A stretch of DNA of 64,000 nt from Caulobacter endophyticus (GTDB lineage: Bacteria > Pseudomonadota > Alphaproteobacteria > Caulobacterales > Caulobacteraceae): the NCBI RefSeq assembly GCF_003116815.1, contig NZ_QDKQ01000064.1:1-64000 (forward strand). Direction: 5' to 3'. This document shows, piece after piece, positions 16,802 to 64,000 of the stretch. A program made the translations under genes and the position numbers. The notes under the pieces are model-generated. The model saw only the letters and a list, made by a program, of their open reading frames with translations. It was not told the DNA's origin and searched no databases. Positions within the stretch are counted from its first letter, which is position 1. Each line of letters begins with the position of its first letter.

Positions 16802-16826
16802 GGAACCCGACCCTTAAAAGCACGTT
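16802..16826 (+). promoter_or_regulatory. SigT (EcfG)-type promoter for lovK
   Basis: GGAAC at 16802-16806 and CGTT at 16823-16826 with a 16-base spacer match the GGAAC-N16/17-CGTT promoter of the alphaproteobacterial general-stress sigma factor. Transcription should begin near 16832-16834, upstream of the lovK ATG at 16875. Confidence 0.78.
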
Positions 16827-16874: not shown

Positions 16875-17984
16875 ATGACGGATTATCTGAAGTCGCAACG
16901 GGCGGGCGATCAGCTCGCGACCGAGCACGGCATCGACGACCCTTTCGCCGCCGCCATCCGCGCCACCCGCATGGCCATGATCGTCACCGACGCCACCCAG
17001 GCCGACAATCCGATCATCTTCGCCAACGACGCCTTCCTGCGGCTGACCGGCTACGCCCGGGCCGAGGTGATCGGCCGCAACTGCCGCTTCCTGCAGGGAC
17101 CCGACACCGATCCCGCCTCGGTCGGCGATCTGCGGCTGGCGATCGCTTCGGGCGAGGACATCGCCATCGACATCCTCAACTACCGCAAGGACGGCAGCAG
17201 CTTCTGGAACGCGCTGTACCTCAGCCCCGTGCGCAACAAGCTGGGCGAGATCATCTACTTCTTCGGCTCGCAGCTGGACGTCAGCGACAAGAAGCAGACC
17301 GAGGCCCACCTGCGCGCGACCCGCAGCGACCTGGAGGACGCCGTCGAGGCGCGCACCCGCGAGCTGTCCCAGGCCCTGGAGCAGAAGACCGCCCTGCTGC
17401 ACGAGGTCGACCACCGGGTGAAAAACAACCTGCAGCTCATCTCCTCGCTGCTGCTGCTGCAGAACCGGCGCGAGAAGGAGCCGGCGGTCAAGCACAGCCT
17501 GCGCGGCATGCTGGAACGGGTGAACGCCATCGCCACCGTCCACCGCCGGCTGTTCCAGAGCGAGGACGTCGAGCGCTTCGACGTCTCGGCCTTCGTGCGC
17601 GACCTTGTCTCGGACATGGCCGGCTCGGCCAATCGCGACGAGATCCGCGTCAGCCTGGACCTGGAGCGCGTGGACGTGCCGGCCTCCAAGGCCGCACCGC
17701 TCGCCCTGGTGATCAGCGAGCTGTTCTCAAACGCCCTGCGCCACGGTTTTCCGGAGGGGCGCGGAGGACACATCTCGGTATCGATCACTCGCACGAACGG
17801 CGAGTTCCGGATCGAAATCGCCGACGACGGCGTTGGAATGGCTGAAGGGGCCCGGACTTCGGGTTTCGGACTGACCATCGTCCAGCTGCTGTGCCAGCAG
17901 CTGAAGGCGCGGTCCGAGACGACAAGCGCCGAGCCCGGAACCCGTGTCGTCGTCAACCTGCCCGTCAACGGCGCGCACCATTAG
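16875..17984 (+). CDS. lovK: LOV-domain blue-light sensor histidine kinase LovK
   Basis: A soluble photosensory kinase of 369 residues. The LOV/PAS domain (about 25-135) holds the flavin-cysteinyl motif GRNCRFLQG with photoactive Cys70. A coiled linker (about 137-172) leads to a HisKA_2 domain with H180 in the HRVKNNLQ motif, then an HATPase domain with a D-G-G box and GFGLTIV. In Caulobacter LovK works with LovR to tune the SigT general stress response and adhesion. The ATG at 16875 aligns with the expected N-terminus; an in-frame ATG at 16833 coincides with the predicted transcription start and could give a leaderless longer form. lovR follows 13 bases downstream. Confidence 0.95.
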   Translation: MTDYLKSQRAGDQLATEHGIDDPFAAAIRATRMAMIVTDATQADNPIIFANDAFLRLTGYARAEVIGRNCRFLQGPDTDPASVGDLRLAIASGEDIAIDILNYRKDGSSFWNALYLSPVRNKLGEIIYFFGSQLDVSDKKQTEAHLRATRSDLEDAVEARTRELSQALEQKTALLHEVDHRVKNNLQLISSLLLLQNRREKEPAVKHSLRGMLERVNAIATVHRRLFQSEDVERFDVSAFVRDLVSDMAGSANRDEIRVSLDLERVDVPASKAAPLALVISELFSNALRHGFPEGRGGHISVSITRTNGEFRIEIADDGVGMAEGARTSGFGLTIVQLLCQQLKARSETTSAEPGTRVVVNLPVNGAHH

Positions 17985-17997
17985 GAACCAGTGACCC

Positions 17998-18462
17998 ATG
18001 CCAGGGCGCGCGTTGGATGTGTTGATCGTCGAGGACGAGGTGCTGCTGGCGGCCGAGCTGGAGTACCTGGTCCAGGAAGTGGGCTACCACCCGGTGGGCT
18101 GCGCCATGAGCTCGGACGAGGCCGTGGACCTGGCCAAGTCGCTGCACCCCGATCTGGCCCTTGTCGACGTCCATCTGCGCGATGGCCCGACCGGCGTCGA
18201 CGTGGTGCGCAAGATCCATGACGACTGCGGCTGCGTGGCCCTGTTCATGACCGCCAATGTCAAGCGCCTGCCGGAGGACTTCGCCGGCGCCTGCGGGGTG
18301 ATCGGCAAGCCCTATTCCGAGCACGGGGTGAAGACGGCCCTGGCCTATCTGGCCGTCTGCATGGACGAGGGCCGCGCCCCGGGTCTGCCGCCGGTAGGGC
18401 TGGAGCTGGCGCCCGCCTTCGCCGAGCTCTGGGGCCTGACCGAAATGCCGCGCACGGCCTGA
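17998..18462 (+). CDS. lovR: Single-domain response regulator LovR
   Basis: A 154-residue stand-alone receiver domain with no output domain. It has the acidic pair E12/D13, phospho-acceptor D57, T85 and K104. In Caulobacter LovR accepts or drains phosphate from LovK and related kinases and represses the general stress response together with LovK. It lies 13 bases after lovK, and its stop codon overlaps the start of the next gene by one base. Confidence 0.92.
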   Translation: MPGRALDVLIVEDEVLLAAELEYLVQEVGYHPVGCAMSSDEAVDLAKSLHPDLALVDVHLRDGPTGVDVVRKIHDDCGCVALFMTANVKRLPEDFAGACGVIGKPYSEHGVKTALAYLAVCMDEGRAPGLPPVGLELAPAFAELWGLTEMPRTA

Positions 18463-21922: not shown

Positions 21923-22279
21923 CTAGCGGGTGGCCTCGTGGACTTCCTTCTTGGCGGCCTGGCCGGCTTCCTTGCTTTCACGCGTGATGTCCTTGCCGGC
22001 TTCCTGGGCCGCGTCGCCGGCCTTGGCGCCGGCGTCCTTGGCCGCGTCGACGGCGTCGCCGGCGGCGGCCTTCAGCTCGGCGGCGGTCTCCTTGCTGCTT
22101 TCCTTCAGCGCCGTGCCGGCTTCCTTGACGTCCGGATCGTTCTTGATCTCGTTGGCGGCGTCCTTGATGTCCTGGCCGGCGGCGCTGGCGCCTTCCTTGA
22201 TCTGCTGGGCGTGCTGGTCCGAGCAGGCGGCGGCCGACAGGGCCAGGGCGGAGACGGCGATCAGGGCGAGGGTGCGCAT
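21923..22279 (-). CDS. Helical stress lipoprotein, LEA-like repeats
   Basis: A protein of 118 residues. A signal peptide leads to a lipobox-like LSAAAC (C19), so it is probably lipid-anchored. The mature part is a continuous amphipathic helix of Lys/Ala/Asp/Glu 11-mer-like repeats (AGTALKESSK, AAGDAVDAAKDAGAKAGDAAQ), much like late-embryogenesis-abundant or YtxH-like stress proteins. A SigT-type promoter stands 45-70 bases upstream, in line with a role in envelope or desiccation/osmotic stress. The role is inferred. Confidence 0.75.
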   Translation of the reverse strand: MRTLALIAVSALALSAAACSDQHAQQIKEGASAAGQDIKDAANEIKNDPDVKEAGTALKESSKETAAELKAAAGDAVDAAKDAGAKAGDAAQEAGKDITRESKEAGQAAKKEVHEATR

Positions 22280-22323: not shown

Positions 22324-22349
22324 AACGGCGGTCGAACGGTCGAGGTTCC
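22324..22349 (-). promoter_or_regulatory. SigT (EcfG)-type promoter for helical lipoprotein
   Basis: On the minus strand GGAAC (22349-22345), a 17-base spacer, then CGTT (22327-22324). The predicted start of transcription, near 22316, leaves a leader of about 37 bases before the lipoprotein ATG. Confidence 0.72.
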
Positions 22350-57616: not shown

Positions 57617-57724
57617 CGACGGGAATCTCTGCTGGCGTAAGTCTTGCCGGACATTGTTCAGGCCGATTGGCGAGAGACAAGGCCGGAGCTAGGCTTAAGC
57701 CTCAATCATGTAGGGAAGTTGCGC

Positions 57725-59266
57725 ATGACCTTGGCGATCGGCGACGGTGAAATCCTCATCGGCCTTGGCGAGGGCCCCGTCACCCAGCGGCTGGACCGCT
57801 CGAACCGCCACGGCGTGGTGGCCGGCGCCACCGGCACCGGCAAGACGGTGACGCTGCAGGTCATGGCCCAGGCCTTCGCCGACGCGGGCGTGCCGGTGTT
57901 CGCCGCCGACGTGAAGGGCGACCTCTCGGGCGTCGCCGCCCTGGGCACGCCCAACGAGAAGATGCTGGCCCGCGCCGCGTCGATGGACATCACCCTGACC
58001 CCGGCGGCCCCGCCGACCATCTTCTGGGACCTGTTCGGCGAGAAGGGCCACCCGATCCGCACGACCATCTCCGAGATGGGGCCGCTGCTGCTGTCGCGCC
58101 TCCTGGAGCTGAACGACGTGCAGGAGGGGGTGCTGACCATCACCTTCCACGTCGCCGACCAGGACGGCCTCTTGCTGCTCGACCTGAAGGATCTTCAAGC
58201 GGCGCTGAAGTACGTGGCCGACAACGCCGGCGAGATCGGCGTCCAGTACGGCAACGTCTCGGCCGCCACGGTCGGCGCGATCCAGCGCAAGCTGCTGACC
58301 CTGCAGACGCAGGGGGCCGAGCACTTCTTCGGCGAGCCGGCCCTGAACCTCTCCGACATCATGCGCACCGACGTGGCCGGGCGCGGCTATGTCAACGTCC
58401 TGGCGGCCGACAGGCTGATCCAGTCGCCCAAGCTCTATTCGACCTTCCTGCTGTGGCTGCTGTCGGAGCTCTTCGAAGAGCTGCCCGAGGTGGGCGATCC
58501 GGAAAAGCCCAAGCTCGTCTTCTTCTTCGACGAGGCGCACCTGCTGTTCAACGACGCGCCCAAGCCCTTGCTGGAGAAGATCGAGCAGGTGGTGCGCCTG
58601 ATCCGCTCCAAGGGCGTGGGCATCTATTTCGTCACCCAGAACCCGGCCGACATTCCCGACGCGGTGCTGGGCCAGCTGGGCGCGCGCGTGCAGCACGCGC
58701 TGCGCGCCTACACGCCCGCCGACCAGAAGGGGCTGAAGGCGGCGGCCCAGTCGTTCCGGGTCAATCCGGCCTTCGACACCGCAGAGACCATCCAGGCCCT
58801 GGGCGTGGGCGAGGCCCTGGTCTCGGTGCTCGACGCCAAGGGCGCGCCGTGCGTGGTGCAGAAGACCCTGATCCGCCCGCCGGCCTCGCGCCTGGGCCCG
58901 CTGACGCCGGAGGAGCGCGCCGCGGCCATGGCCAAGAGCCCGGTGGCCGACCTCTACGACACCGCCCAGGACCGCGCCTCGGCCTACGAGACCCTGCAGG
59001 GCCGCGCCGCCCAGGCCCAGAAGGACGCAGCCGCCGCCGCCAGCGCCGCCGAAGCCGACCGCCAGCGCGCGGCCGAAGCCAAGGTGCGCGAACGCGAGCG
59101 CGCCCAGGAAGAACGCCAAGCCGCCCGCGCCTCGCGGCCCCGCGCGTCGTCCAACCGCCAGGGCATGGCCGAGACCTTCGCCAAGTCGCTGCTGCGCACC
59201 GTGGCCAGCCAGGCCGGCCGCGAGATCATGCGGGGGTTGCTGGGGGGCCTGAGCCGGCGGCGGTAG
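57725..59266 (+). CDS. HerA-like ATPase, DUF853 family
   Basis: A soluble P-loop ATPase of 513 residues. Walker A is GATGTGKT near residue 36; the DUF853 core has [21 protein letters not shown] (Walker B) and [19 protein letters not shown]. The C-terminal 90 residues are a basic/Ala coiled coil. It is related to HerA/FtsK DNA-pumping ATPases, but the DNA role of DUF853 proteins is not established. GGGAAG precedes the ATG at 57725; the frame is open to 57644. Confidence 0.9.
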
Positions 59267-59292: not shown

Positions 59293-61608
59293 TTAGCGCA
59301 CCGCCTCGGCCAGGGCCCGGTGCAGCTGCTCTATCCGGAACGGCTTGCGCAGCACCGGCCAGGGCAGGTCTTCCAGGGCCGCGGCCAGGCGGTCGCCCGC
59401 GTAGCCGGTGGTCAGCAGCACGGCCGTCTCAGGCGTACGCTCGGCGACGATACGGCCCAGCTCCACGCCGCTGACGCCGCCCGGCATGACGAGGTCCGAC
59501 AGCAGGACGTCGAAGGCGGCCTCGGTCTCCAGCCGGGCCAGGGCCGCGCGGCCGTGCTCGGCGGTGACGACGACGCAGCCCAGCTCCGACAGCGCGCCTT
59601 CCGTGATGGCCCGGACGCTGGCGTCGTCCTCGACCAGCAGCACCCGCACGCCGGTGAGATCGGCGATCGGCGCGTCCTCGGCCTTCTCGGCGACGATCCC
59701 GTCGGAAGCGGCGGCCGGCAGGTGCAGCGAGACGGTGGTTCCCCTGCCCTCCTGGCTGTCGATGGTCACCGCCCCGCCGCACTGGCGCACAAAACCATAG
59801 ACCTGGGCCAGGCCAAGGCCCGTGCCCTTGCCGACCTCCTTGGTGGTGAAGAACGGCTCGAACACCCGGCCCAGCACCTCGGGCGACATGCCATGGCCGG
59901 TGTCGCTGACCGCCACCCGCACATAGTCGCCGGCCGGGGCTTCGCCCGCCTGTCCCTCGGCCAGGCGCTCGGAGGCGACCTCGACGGTGATCGTGCCGTC
60001 GTCGGGGGTGGCGTCGACGGCGTTGACCACCAGATTGAGCAGGGCCGCCTCGAACTGGGCGGCGTCGACGCGGCTGGCGCCGGCCTCGCGGTCGGCGCGG
60101 ACCACCAGGCTCTTGGCGTCGCCGGCGGCGCGGCGCACGAGCGGCTCGACCTGCAGGATCAGGCCGGCGATATCGACGACCTCCAGCTTCAGTTCCTGGC
60201 TGCGCGAGAAGGCCAGCAGCTGGCGGGTCAGGCGCTCGCCCCGCTGGCCGGCGGCCAGGGCCGCCTCGCCCAGGCGCTTCACCCGCGCCACGTCGTCGGG
60301 GCGCTTGAGGATCATGTCGAGCCCGCCGACCATCACCGTCAGCAGGTTGTTGAAGTCGTGGGCGACCCCGCCGGTCAGCCGGCCGACGGTCTCCAGCCGC
60401 TGCGACTGGGCGAGCGCCGCCTCGGTCTTGGCGCGTTCGGCGATGCTGGCTTCGAGCGCGGCGGTGCGCTCGACGACGCGGGCTTCGAGGTCCAGCGTGG
60501 TCTCGACCACCTCGGTATTGTCGAAGCAGCTGCCGATATAGCCCTGGAACTGGCCGTAGGCGTCGTAGCGAGGGGCGCCGGCGCTGCTGATCCAGCGCCA
60601 GGCGCCGTCGGCGCGGCGCAGGCGGAAGGCGGCGCGGAATGGCCGGCGAGCCTCGATGGCGGCGGCCGCCTCGCCCTCGGCGGCCGATAGGTCGTCGGGA
60701 TGCACGCCGGCCGCCCATCCGCGCCCCAGCTCTTCTTCCATGCTGCGGCCGGTGAATTTCAGCCAGGCGTCGTTGAACCAGACGCAGGCGCCGTCGACGC
60801 CGGAAATCCAGATCATCACCGGGGCGGCGTTGGCCACGCCCCGGAACTGCTCCTCGCTGGTGCGCAGGGCCGCCTGGGCGCGCCGCTCGCGGGTCACGTC
60901 GCGAAAGGTCACCGCCAGCCCCTCGGTGATGCGTACGCCGCTGGAGCGCACCCAGTGCTCCTCGCCGTCGATCACCCGGCGCACCTCAAGGTCGTCGGGG
61001 CCGCCCTCGTCGAGCAGGCGGGTCAGGCGATCGATCATCTGCTGGCCCGTCTCGTCGCGAAACACGTCGCGCACCCGGCGGCCGATCAGGGTGGAGACGC
61101 CGCGCGGCCGCAGGGCCTGGGCGGCGGGATTGGCATAGGTCCAGCGGAAGTCGTCGATCCGGCCCGCCCGCCGCACGGGCTCGAGGATCACGAAGGCGTC
61201 GAGCGAGGCGTCCTGGGCGATACGGAAGCGCTCCTCGGCGGCCAGGCCGCTGCGCACGGCCAGCCGCAGGGCGGCGACGAACAGCACGATCAGGCCGCTG
61301 CTCAGGCCGAAGGTGGCCAGTTGCGCGGCCTGGGCGGTCTCCAGCGGACCGCTCATCCACAACAGGCGGACCAGCAGGGCGCTGGCCAGCACCGAGGCCA
61401 GGCCCGCCCATAGGCCGCCGACCAGGGCGGCCAGCATCACCGCCACGAAGAAGGGCGGGAAATTGCTGGGGTGGTCGGTCAGGGTCGCCGCGCCCACGCG
61501 GGCGGCCGCCGCCAGCGCCACGGCCGCGCCGGCCAGGCAGAACCGAAGAACCGGGCGATCGACCGACGATGCGAACCGGATCGTCGCCCGACTGAGAAAC
61601 TGGCCCAT
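59293..61608 (-). CDS. PAS hybrid sensor histidine kinase with receiver domain
   Basis: A 771-residue protein. The N-terminal 115 residues form four or so membrane helices of the KdpD/DUF4118 type. Two PAS domains follow (about 125-235 and 245-365), then a coiled coil, a HisKA with HDFNNLLT (acceptor His), HATPase_c (NLVVNAVDA, DTGHGM, GTGLGLAQ) and a C-terminal receiver with acceptor Asp in LLSDLVMPG. It passes signal by internal phosphorelay. A SigT promoter lies upstream, so it is a candidate stress-response kinase. Confidence 0.92.
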   Translation of the reverse strand: MGQFLSRATIRFASSVDRPVLRFCLAGAAVALAAAARVGAATLTDHPSNFPPFFVAVMLAALVGGLWAGLASVLASALLVRLLWMSGPLETAQAAQLATFGLSSGLIVLFVAALRLAVRSGLAAEERFRIAQDASLDAFVILEPVRRAGRIDDFRWTYANPAAQALRPRGVSTLIGRRVRDVFRDETGQQMIDRLTRLLDEGGPDDLEVRRVIDGEEHWVRSSGVRITEGLAVTFRDVTRERRAQAALRTSEEQFRGVANAAPVMIWISGVDGACVWFNDAWLKFTGRSMEEELGRGWAAGVHPDDLSAAEGEAAAAIEARRPFRAAFRLRRADGAWRWISSAGAPRYDAYGQFQGYIGSCFDNTEVVETTLDLEARVVERTAALEASIAERAKTEAALAQSQRLETVGRLTGGVAHDFNNLLTVMVGGLDMILKRPDDVARVKRLGEAALAAGQRGERLTRQLLAFSRSQELKLEVVDIAGLILQVEPLVRRAAGDAKSLVVRADREAGASRVDAAQFEAALLNLVVNAVDATPDDGTITVEVASERLAEGQAGEAPAGDYVRVAVSDTGHGMSPEVLGRVFEPFFTTKEVGKGTGLGLAQVYGFVRQCGGAVTIDSQEGRGTTVSLHLPAAASDGIVAEKAEDAPIADLTGVRVLLVEDDASVRAITEGALSELGCVVVTAEHGRAALARLETEAAFDVLLSDLVMPGGVSGVELGRIVAERTPETAVLLTTGYAGDRLAAALEDLPWPVLRKPFRIEQLHRALAEAVR

Positions 61609-61658
61609 TACGCTAGCCCCGCGTCGCCGGGCGCACCCCCGCCGACGACGCAGGTGCT

Positions 61659-61683
61659 AACGCCGGCCAACGGCAGAGGTTCC
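61659..61683 (-). promoter_or_regulatory. SigT (EcfG)-type promoter for PAS hybrid kinase
   Basis: On the minus strand GGAAC (61683-61679), a 16-base spacer, then CGTT (61662-61659). The predicted start of transcription, near 61651, leaves a leader of about 43 bases. Confidence 0.75.
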
Positions 61684-61701
61684 CGCGCAGGTTGCTTCTG
61701 A

Positions 61702-64000
61702 TCAGGCCGCGCCGCGGGCCTTGGTCTCGACCTCCGCGGCGGCGGCCGCCGCGGCGCGGGCCAGGGTCCAGGCCGACAGGCTGTCGATCGGGCCGGGACG
61801 GCCGATGGCGTAGCCCTGCAGCTCGGCGCAGGACTCGCCGCGCAGGAAGTCGATCTGCTCCTGGGTCTCGACGCCCTCGGCCACGACCGGGATCTCCAGG
61901 CTGCGGCCCAGGCCCAGCACGGCGCGCACGATGACGGTGGCGCGGTCGTGGCGGTGGATGTTCTCCACGAAGCTCTTGTCGATCTTGATCTTGTCGAACG
62001 GGAACGACTGCAGGGTCGACAGCGACGAGAAGCCGGTGCCGAAGTCGTCCATGGCGATGCGAACGCCCAGGGCCTTCAGGCGGCGCAGGTTGTCGAGCGC
62101 GCGCTGGTAGTCCTTGAACAGGGCGCTTTCGGTGATCTCCAGCTCCAGGCGCGAGGGCGACAGGCCGGTGGCGATCAGCACCTCGTGCACCAGGGTCGGC
62201 AGGTTCGGCTGGTTCAGCTGCAGCGGCGACAGGTTGACGGCGATGCGCAGCGGGCGGTCCCAGCTGGCGGCGTCGGCGCAGGCGCGGCGCAGGACCCATT
62301 CGCCCAGCTGGGTGATCAGGCCGTTCTCCTCGGCCACCGGAATGAACTCCAGCGGCGGGACCATGCCGCGCACCGGGTGCTTCCAGCGGACCAGGGCCTC
62401 GAAGCCGCAGACCTCGCCGTCGGCGGCGCGGGCCAGGGGCTGGTAGAACACCACCAGTTCCTCGTCGGTGATCGCCTGGCGCAGCTCGCGGGCCAGGGTG
62501 CGACGTTCACGGATGGTCTCGTCCATCTCGCGCTTGAAAAAGCGATAGACGCCCCGGCCGCTTTCCTTGGCGCGGTAGAGGGCCATGTCGGCGTTGGCCA
62601 GCAGGGCCTCGGCGGTGCGGCCGTCATCGGGGAACAGCGACACGCCCAGGCTCGCGCCCATGGCCAGGTCCTGGCCTTCGTAGACGGCAGGGACCGACAG
62701 CTGCTCGAGCACGCGGCCAGCCAGTTCGGCGGCGGCGGCGGGCTGATCGCCGGCGGCGATCTGCACCAGGATGAACTCGTCGCCGCCCAGGCGCGCGGCG
62801 AAGGACGGGGCGGTCACGGCGTCCTGCAGGCGGCGCGCGGCCTCGACCAGCAGGGCGTCGCCCGCCAGGTGGCCGTGCAGGTCGTTGGCTTCCTTGAAGT
62901 GATCAAGATCGATGCAGACCAGCGACAGCGTCTCGCCGGAAGCCTCGACGCGCTCCAGGGCCGCGGCCAGGCGCGCTTGCAGCGAATTGCGGTTGGGCAG
63001 GCCGGTCAGGCCGTCGTGTTCGGCCAGGTAGCGGATCTTCTCTTCGGCCGAGCGGCGCTCGCGCAGGTCGCGGATGGCCAGCACGGTCAGGCCCGAGGTC
63101 TCGGTGCGGGCGCCGTCGTCCATCAGGCGCGAGAACACCTCGACGGGAATGGCCCGACCGCCGGCCAGGGGCTGAAGAAGCCCTTCGCGGCGCACGCCCT
63201 CGCGGGCCGGCTCCTTGCCGTCAAAAGTCAGCATGGCGTTGTAGAGCGGCTTGCCGACCAGCTCGCCCAGCGGGGCGCCGGCCAGTTCGGCGAAGGCGGC
63301 GTTGGCGTCGTTGATGCGGCCGTCCTGGACCACGACGATGCCTTCGTAGGCGGCGTTGGCCAGGCGGCGGATGCGGTCCAGCGCCGAGCGGCTGGTCGAG
63401 GACTCGATGGTCACCGCGCCCAGGCCGCCCAGGATGATCAGGCCCGTGATCGAGGTCACGGCCAGGGTCAGCATGGCGCCCGACAGCAGCTGGTCGGGCA
63501 CGACGACGTTGACGTCGGGAACGATGGTGACCGCGCCCATGCCGGTGAAGTGCAGGCCGCAGACGCCCAGCGTCAGCACCGTGCCGCCGATCAGTTGCTT
63601 GGCCAGCGAACGGGCGCGGCCGGCGACGACCAAGGCCACGGCCGACAGGCTCACGCCGATCACCACCGAGGCGGCGACGGTGGCCTGTTCCCAGACCACA
63701 TAGCCTTGGGTGACGAAGGCCGACATGCCGGTGAAGTGCATCGCGCCGATGCCCAGGCCCAGCAGCAGGCCGCCGGCGCAGTCGTTGGTCCGGGTGCGCT
63801 CGGCCGAGGCCACGGCGAAGCCGGCGGCCATGAACAGCACGGCGATCATCAGCGACAGCAGCGTGCCGGCCGGGCTGTAGCCCGTCTTCAGGCCGGGATC
63901 GTAGGCGACCATGGCGATGAAGTGGGTGGCCCAGACGCCCGAGCCGGCGACGAGGCCGGTGAGCAGCAGCCAGGCGCCGCGCACGAGACCGCGCGCGCCG
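61702..64000 (-). CDS. MHYT-PAS-GGDEF-EAL cyclic-di-GMP protein (partial)
   Basis: An inner-membrane c-di-GMP enzyme cut by the window edge at its N-terminus; about 765 residues are visible. Three MHYT-type motifs (THFIAM, MHFTGM, LHFTGM) sit in membrane helices and may bind a metal sensing a gas. A PAS domain leads to a GGDEF domain with an intact LGGDEF, then an EAL domain with FEALVRW, ELEITES and DDFGTGFSS. The RxxD inhibitory site expected just before GGDEF is not seen. It may make or degrade c-di-GMP. It ends in an Ala-rich tail. Confidence 0.9.
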   Translation of the reverse strand, partial: GARGLVRGAWLLLTGLVAGSGVWATHFIAMVAYDPGLKTGYSPAGTLLSLMIAVLFMAAGFAVASAERTRTNDCAGGLLLGLGIGAMHFTGMSAFVTQGYVVWEQATVAASVVIGVSLSAVALVVAGRARSLAKQLIGGTVLTLGVCGLHFTGMGAVTIVPDVNVVVPDQLLSGAMLTLAVTSITGLIILGGLGAVTIESSTSRSALDRIRRLANAAYEGIVVVQDGRINDANAAFAELAGAPLGELVGKPLYNAMLTFDGKEPAREGVRREGLLQPLAGGRAIPVEVFSRLMDDGARTETSGLTVLAIRDLRERRSAEEKIRYLAEHDGLTGLPNRNSLQARLAAALERVEASGETLSLVCIDLDHFKEANDLHGHLAGDALLVEAARRLQDAVTAPSFAARLGGDEFILVQIAAGDQPAAAAELAGRVLEQLSVPAVYEGQDLAMGASLGVSLFPDDGRTAEALLANADMALYRAKESGRGVYRFFKREMDETIRERRTLARELRQAITDEELVVFYQPLARAADGEVCGFEALVRWKHPVRGMVPPLEFIPVAEENGLITQLGEWVLRRACADAASWDRPLRIAVNLSPLQLNQPNLPTLVHEVLIATGLSPSRLELEITESALFKDYQRALDNLRRLKALGVRIAMDDFGTGFSSLSTLQSFPFDKIKIDKSFVENIHRHDRATVIVRAVLGLGRSLEIPVVAEGVETQEQIDFLRGESCAELQGYAIGRPGPIDSLSAWTLARAAAAAAAEVETKARGAA

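Follow-up and report, generated by a model that had tools for sequence, protein, structure and literature searches.

Sensor kinases under the control of the stress sigma factor SigT are already known. In C. crescentus, both lovK and lovR are SigT-dependent (PMC3073932), and lovK/lovR have been proposed to dampen the stress response by draining phosphate from MrrA (PMC5964349). In the same organism CC2874, a hybrid kinase of the HisKA type, phosphorylates MrrA, a reaction for which its own Rec domain is not needed; MrrA, in turn, feeds PhyK and LovK (PMC5964349). No statement that CC2874 is itself controlled by SigT was found. The kinase described here, a HisKA hybrid, is very probably an addition to the SigT-controlled set.

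The window, i.e. the whole stretch of 64,000 nucleotides of Caulobacter endophyticus DNA that was analysed, carries on its minus strand, at 59293..61608, an intact gene for a hybrid histidine kinase of 771 aa, organized as TM-PAS-PAS-HisKA-HATPase-REC. The N-terminal hydrophobic region (residues ~20-124) is followed by PAS_4 (153-243), PAS_3 (278-359), HisKA (with H417), HATPase_c and REC (with D705). HisKA, HATPase_c and REC all exceed the curated cut-offs, as expected of a hybrid HisKA kinase, and aligned orthologs keep H417, D705 and K755, along with the N-box and the G-boxes. The first-pass annotation had called the protein a PAS hybrid histidine kinase, a description that the PAS, HisKA, HATPase_c and REC profile matches show to be correct. 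The start at 61608 is credible, as the alignment pairs MGQFLSRATIRF with the first residues of more distant orthologs.

As to the type of kinase, the HisKA family model PF00512 scores over its cut-off, while the domain profile search gives no match to HWE_HK or HisKA_2 in this protein; such a match is found in both PhyK and the LovK-like kinase. A PhyR-pathway kinase of the PhyK/LovK type was thus discarded, as the HWE_HK/HisKA_2 domain is missing. Identity with CckA was also discarded: the score is 248 bits, against an equivalog cut-off of 1000, and the genuine CckA is encoded at C19:46090-48099. Both the Caulobacter-type CckA model and the PhyK model are over cut-off in the genome, which, together with its GsrN homolog, points to the genus Caulobacter. 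The genome encodes about a dozen CckA-like HisKA-REC kinases. Given this number of similar kinases, and since no response regulator gene is found beside the kinase, its partner cannot be read from either family or context. A search of genome contigs for named relatives returned distant kinases only, and a plasmid search domain-level matches only.

Upstream of the kinase, the motif scan of the window identifies GGAACCTCTGCCGTTGGCCGGCGTT, a GGAAC-N16-CGTT sequence on the minus strand, at 61683..61659. The -35 box, GGAAC, occupies 61679..61683, and the -10 box, CGTT, 61659..61662, with a 16-bp spacer in between. Measured to the kinase ATG at 61608, the end of the -10 box lies 50 nt and the start of the -35 box 75 nt upstream: both the sequence and its distance of 50–75 bases from the kinase are exactly as the first-pass annotation had claimed. 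The boxes are at the 16-17 bp distance typical of EcfG/SigT promoters; strand and position are those of a site upstream of its gene and outside coding sequence; the motif is conserved in orthologs beyond background, and the sigma factor is encoded in the genome together with NepR and PhyR. Similar boxes are usable by other ECF sigma factors. In the 93-bp gap between the kinase and the preceding EAL gene (61609-61701), neither a sigma-70-type site nor a U-tract terminator was found. As judged from these features, 61683..61659 is very probably a direct EcfG/SigT-type target promoter of the hybrid kinase.

Conservation was evaluated in 49 genomes of the genus, this one (G000) included, 13 of which feature a close relative of the kinase (at least 65% identity). 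In 11 of the 13, an exact GGAAC-N16/17-CGTT, with an invariant -35 box, is found between the stop of the upstream EAL gene and the kinase start; a shuffled 100-bp leader contains the motif with P ~0.0004-0.0008. Near-clade spacers share 9-13 of their 16 positions with that of G000, and all nine box bases are unchanged. Among far-clade genomes spacer identity to G000 is 1/16 in G027, G048 and G030, and 5/16 in G033, both boxes being intact. The two exceptions are G016, where the kinase is intact and the motif absent, and the complete genome G043 (L022), where the -10 box reads TGTT and the kinase is frameshifted at about residue 170, either by decay or by sequencing error. The 11 motif-bearing genomes are related, and hence not independent, but the spacers of the near clade, of the far clade, of G004 and of G033 clearly have distinct histories. 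Conservation among orthologs is the decisive evidence that the motif is real.

The raw number of motifs, in contrast, is uninformative in this GC-rich genome, and was rejected as promoter evidence, being equalled by shuffles and by the reversed pattern. The N15-18 pattern has 3 matches in the window (1.36 expected), a number reached by 16 out of 100 shuffles; in the whole genome 67 matches are found, while the reversed pattern has 64. For every one of the 67 matches the flanking sequence was extracted, and genes were called by codon usage; for the kinase, distance was taken to the ATG at 61608, since the caller chose a later internal start. Of the 67 matches, 40 are on the correct strand and have a called gene beginning no more than 200 bp downstream, where random placement (4.3%) would leave about 3. 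Throughout the genome, the distance of these promoter-position matches peaks at 30-65 bp before genes. For the other 27 matches, no gene start is close downstream.

All three window matches are located 44-50 bp before a gene start. One of them, a SigT-type motif at 16802..16826 (plus strand), works as a positive control, being found 48 bp before the gene of a LovK-like PAS-HisKA_2 kinase (16875-17984). The gene next to this kinase, at 18019-18462 (plus strand), codes for 147 aa and, by position, could be lovR. The third SigT-type motif of the window, at 22324-22349 (minus strand), is 44 bp before the gene at 21923-22279 (minus strand), whose 118-aa product matches no Pfam family.

Elsewhere in the genome, PhyR, NepR, SigT and PhyK are all encoded in the core locus of the general stress response (GSR), on contig C43, where the phyR-nepR interval carries motifs on both strands. 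Motif sites precede phyR, nepR-sigT, a GsrN-like sRNA and the LovK-like kinase, all of which may be used as positive controls. Three further sensor genes, two coding for HWE kinases and one for a phytochrome, feature an upstream motif; other genes downstream of a motif code for topoisomerase IB, a BON-domain protein, a GST and an OmpA-family protein. The GsrN-like sRNA, 127 nt long (G000:C43:25212-25338; L121:5212-5338, minus strand), begins just after an exact SigT motif and shows a strong fold (z -4.4), with a seven-C loop and a terminator-like 3' hairpin; it was detected in 28 of the 30 genus genomes searched. Its C-tract loop and its location near sigT fit GsrN (PMC5869019).

On contig C57 (L154 and G000:C57:57704-57727), a SigT-type motif precedes the gene of a phytochrome (PAS-GAF-PHY), and a receiver motif of the FATGY type is found at a distance of about 2.5 kb. 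The genome contains several such FATGY-type receiver motifs, as motif matches only. A third EcfG-like gene, at G000:C16:50596-51150 (L237), is 55% identical to SigT and contains four stop codons: it looks like a decayed paralog.

The kinase is preceded, on the same strand, by the gene of an MHYT-PAS-GGDEF-EAL protein (61702..63999, called to 64113, beyond the window end), and followed by the convergent gene of a HerA-like ATPase (57644..59266, plus strand). The EAL gene, present in this genome and in 27 of the 29 same-genus relatives searched, is a fixed neighbour of the kinase cassette. In most of the kinase-less relatives where the locus is visible, no gene separates the EAL gene from the HerA gene, which indicates that the kinase and its promoter were gained or lost together, as one unit. 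The tree of the EAL protein implies that the kinase was gained or lost no fewer than three times, and is compatible with both transfer and repeated loss.

These data bear on three other explanations for the motif. That it is a chance match is hardly credible: its number, in the window as in the genome, is not above that of shuffles or of the reversed pattern, but the motif is kept across two clades whose kinases are 65% identical, at a chance of ~0.0006 per leader, and matches are enriched in promoter position throughout the genome. It is also improbable that expression of the kinase comes mainly from read-through of the MHYT-GGDEF-EAL gene, the motif being minor or silent. Common strand, the 93-bp gap, the lack of a U-tract terminator in it and the constant vicinity of the two genes, wherever the kinase exists, would all agree with read-through. 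Yet the motif is conserved while spacer and leader diverge, and many relatives have the EAL gene without the kinase, which argues for the kinase bringing its own promoter. Unlikely to a similar extent is a real promoter read mainly by an ECF sigma factor other than SigT, the obvious candidate being a SigU-like EcfG paralog, 62% identical to SigT, encoded at C71:100967-101539. In C. crescentus SigU is indeed a SigT-activated paralog, but only a single starvation-induced gene looked dependent on SigU, and that gene lacks the motif (PMC3073932); moreover, the same motif class is found here before phyR and nepR-sigT, as expected of SigT autoregulation. The assignment of the kinase to EcfG/SigT, proposed by the first-pass annotation, is thus well supported by the phylogenetic footprint, the genome-wide positional enrichment and the positive controls.

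It is accordingly likely that a promoter of the EcfG type, read by SigT itself or by a close paralog, brings the kinase into the general stress response as a sensor of the second tier. SigT-dependent transcription would start near 61651-61655, and the kinase, probably absent as long as the response is off, would accumulate after its onset. The protein would then autophosphorylate at H417 and exchange phosphate with D705 of its fused receiver, from which the output would pass to another receiver or to a phosphotransfer protein. Any specific output is proposed here tentatively. The most likely single one, by analogy, may be a modulation of the stress pathway, either positive or dampening, via a single-domain receiver of the MrrA type, although other outputs, taken together, are likelier. 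Feedback on PhyR-type signalling, as suggested by the first-pass annotation, survives in part. Direct phosphorylation of PhyR is unlikely, because the kinase is HisKA and not HWE/HisKA_2, as PhyK and LovK are; an indirect, MrrA-type route is possible by analogy, since the precedent of CC2874 indicates that a HisKA hybrid can reach PhyR indirectly.

The main functional rival to modulation through an MrrA-type receiver is an output in cell-cycle control, where a CckA-like hybrid would feed ChpT and, from there, CtrA or CpdR, linking SigT to the clearance of CtrA. The closest solved structures, by sequence, are those of a related kinase core (5idj) and of CckA (5idm), ChpT can be recognised by eye in the vicinity of sigT, and SigT-dependent clearance of CtrA under starvation has been reported in C. 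crescentus (PMC3073932). The link is nonetheless rather unlikely: the kinase falls far below the CckA cut-off, its REC is 31% identical to that of CckA, and the true CckA is encoded elsewhere; the starvation phenotype, furthermore, comes from C. crescentus, and no close copy of the kinase was found in the 4.0-Mb relatives searched.

The promoter geometry, with a start some 4-8 nt downstream of the -10 box, predicts a 5' leader at 61609..61655 (minus strand). At its beginning a candidate hairpin, with loop GGGGUG, may form at 61623..61651 (minus strand), and is a putative pairing site for GsrN. Its fold z is -1.74. In six near orthologs most of the pairing persists (94% of cells paired); covariation is weak, with double changes at two pairs, a level as high in 23 out of 500 shuffles, and the six sequences are closely related. 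Leaders of the far clade feature unrelated hairpins at a similar place, and no G-rich hairpin loop. The GsrN pairing score of the kinase leader is the best of 94 leaders (40 SigT and 54 other), and is matched by 25 out of 200 shuffled versions of this leader. Pairing of GsrN with the G-rich hairpin is therefore a speculative lead only. It would be one element of a coherent feed-forward within the stress response. In this scheme, kinase and sRNA would share SigT as their sigma factor, GsrN would bind the G-rich loop near the 5' end of the kinase mRNA, and the kinase, as a HisKA hybrid, would pass phosphate into the MrrA/PhyK/PhyR relay, the whole HisKA branch being gained or lost as a cassette in the genus; such a complete scheme would be quite improbable.

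By good comparative evidence, a HisKA hybrid is added to the sensors whose expression is controlled by the stress sigma factor of the Alphaproteobacteria itself. A conserved, SigT-controlled kinase of this type is a concrete candidate, and the cassette composed of kinase and promoter, present or absent among close relatives, provides a natural comparison.

Among described systems, CckA has in common with this kinase the domain order, PAS-PAS-HisKA(HDFNNLL)-HATPase-REC, and differs from it in the features already reported (248 bits against the equivalog cut-off of 1000, a REC with 31% identity, a true CckA elsewhere in the genome). The likeness to lovK-lovR consists in a PAS-type sensor kinase under SigT, for which, in the case of LovK, feedback on the stress response has been proposed (PMC3073932, PMC5964349). 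LovK, in contrast, is a HisKA_2 kinase with no REC of its own, encoded beside lovR, while the present kinase is HisKA, has a fused REC, and is encoded with no regulator gene adjacent to it. With CC2874, the kinase shares, with no orthology implied, the combination of a HisKA kinase and a C-terminal Rec, in a host endowed with the MrrA/PhyK/PhyR pathway (PMC5964349). As for the promoter, no difference is found from those of EcfG (ECF15), GGAAC-N16/17-CGTT: at the level of sequence, boxes, spacing and distance from the gene appear identical.
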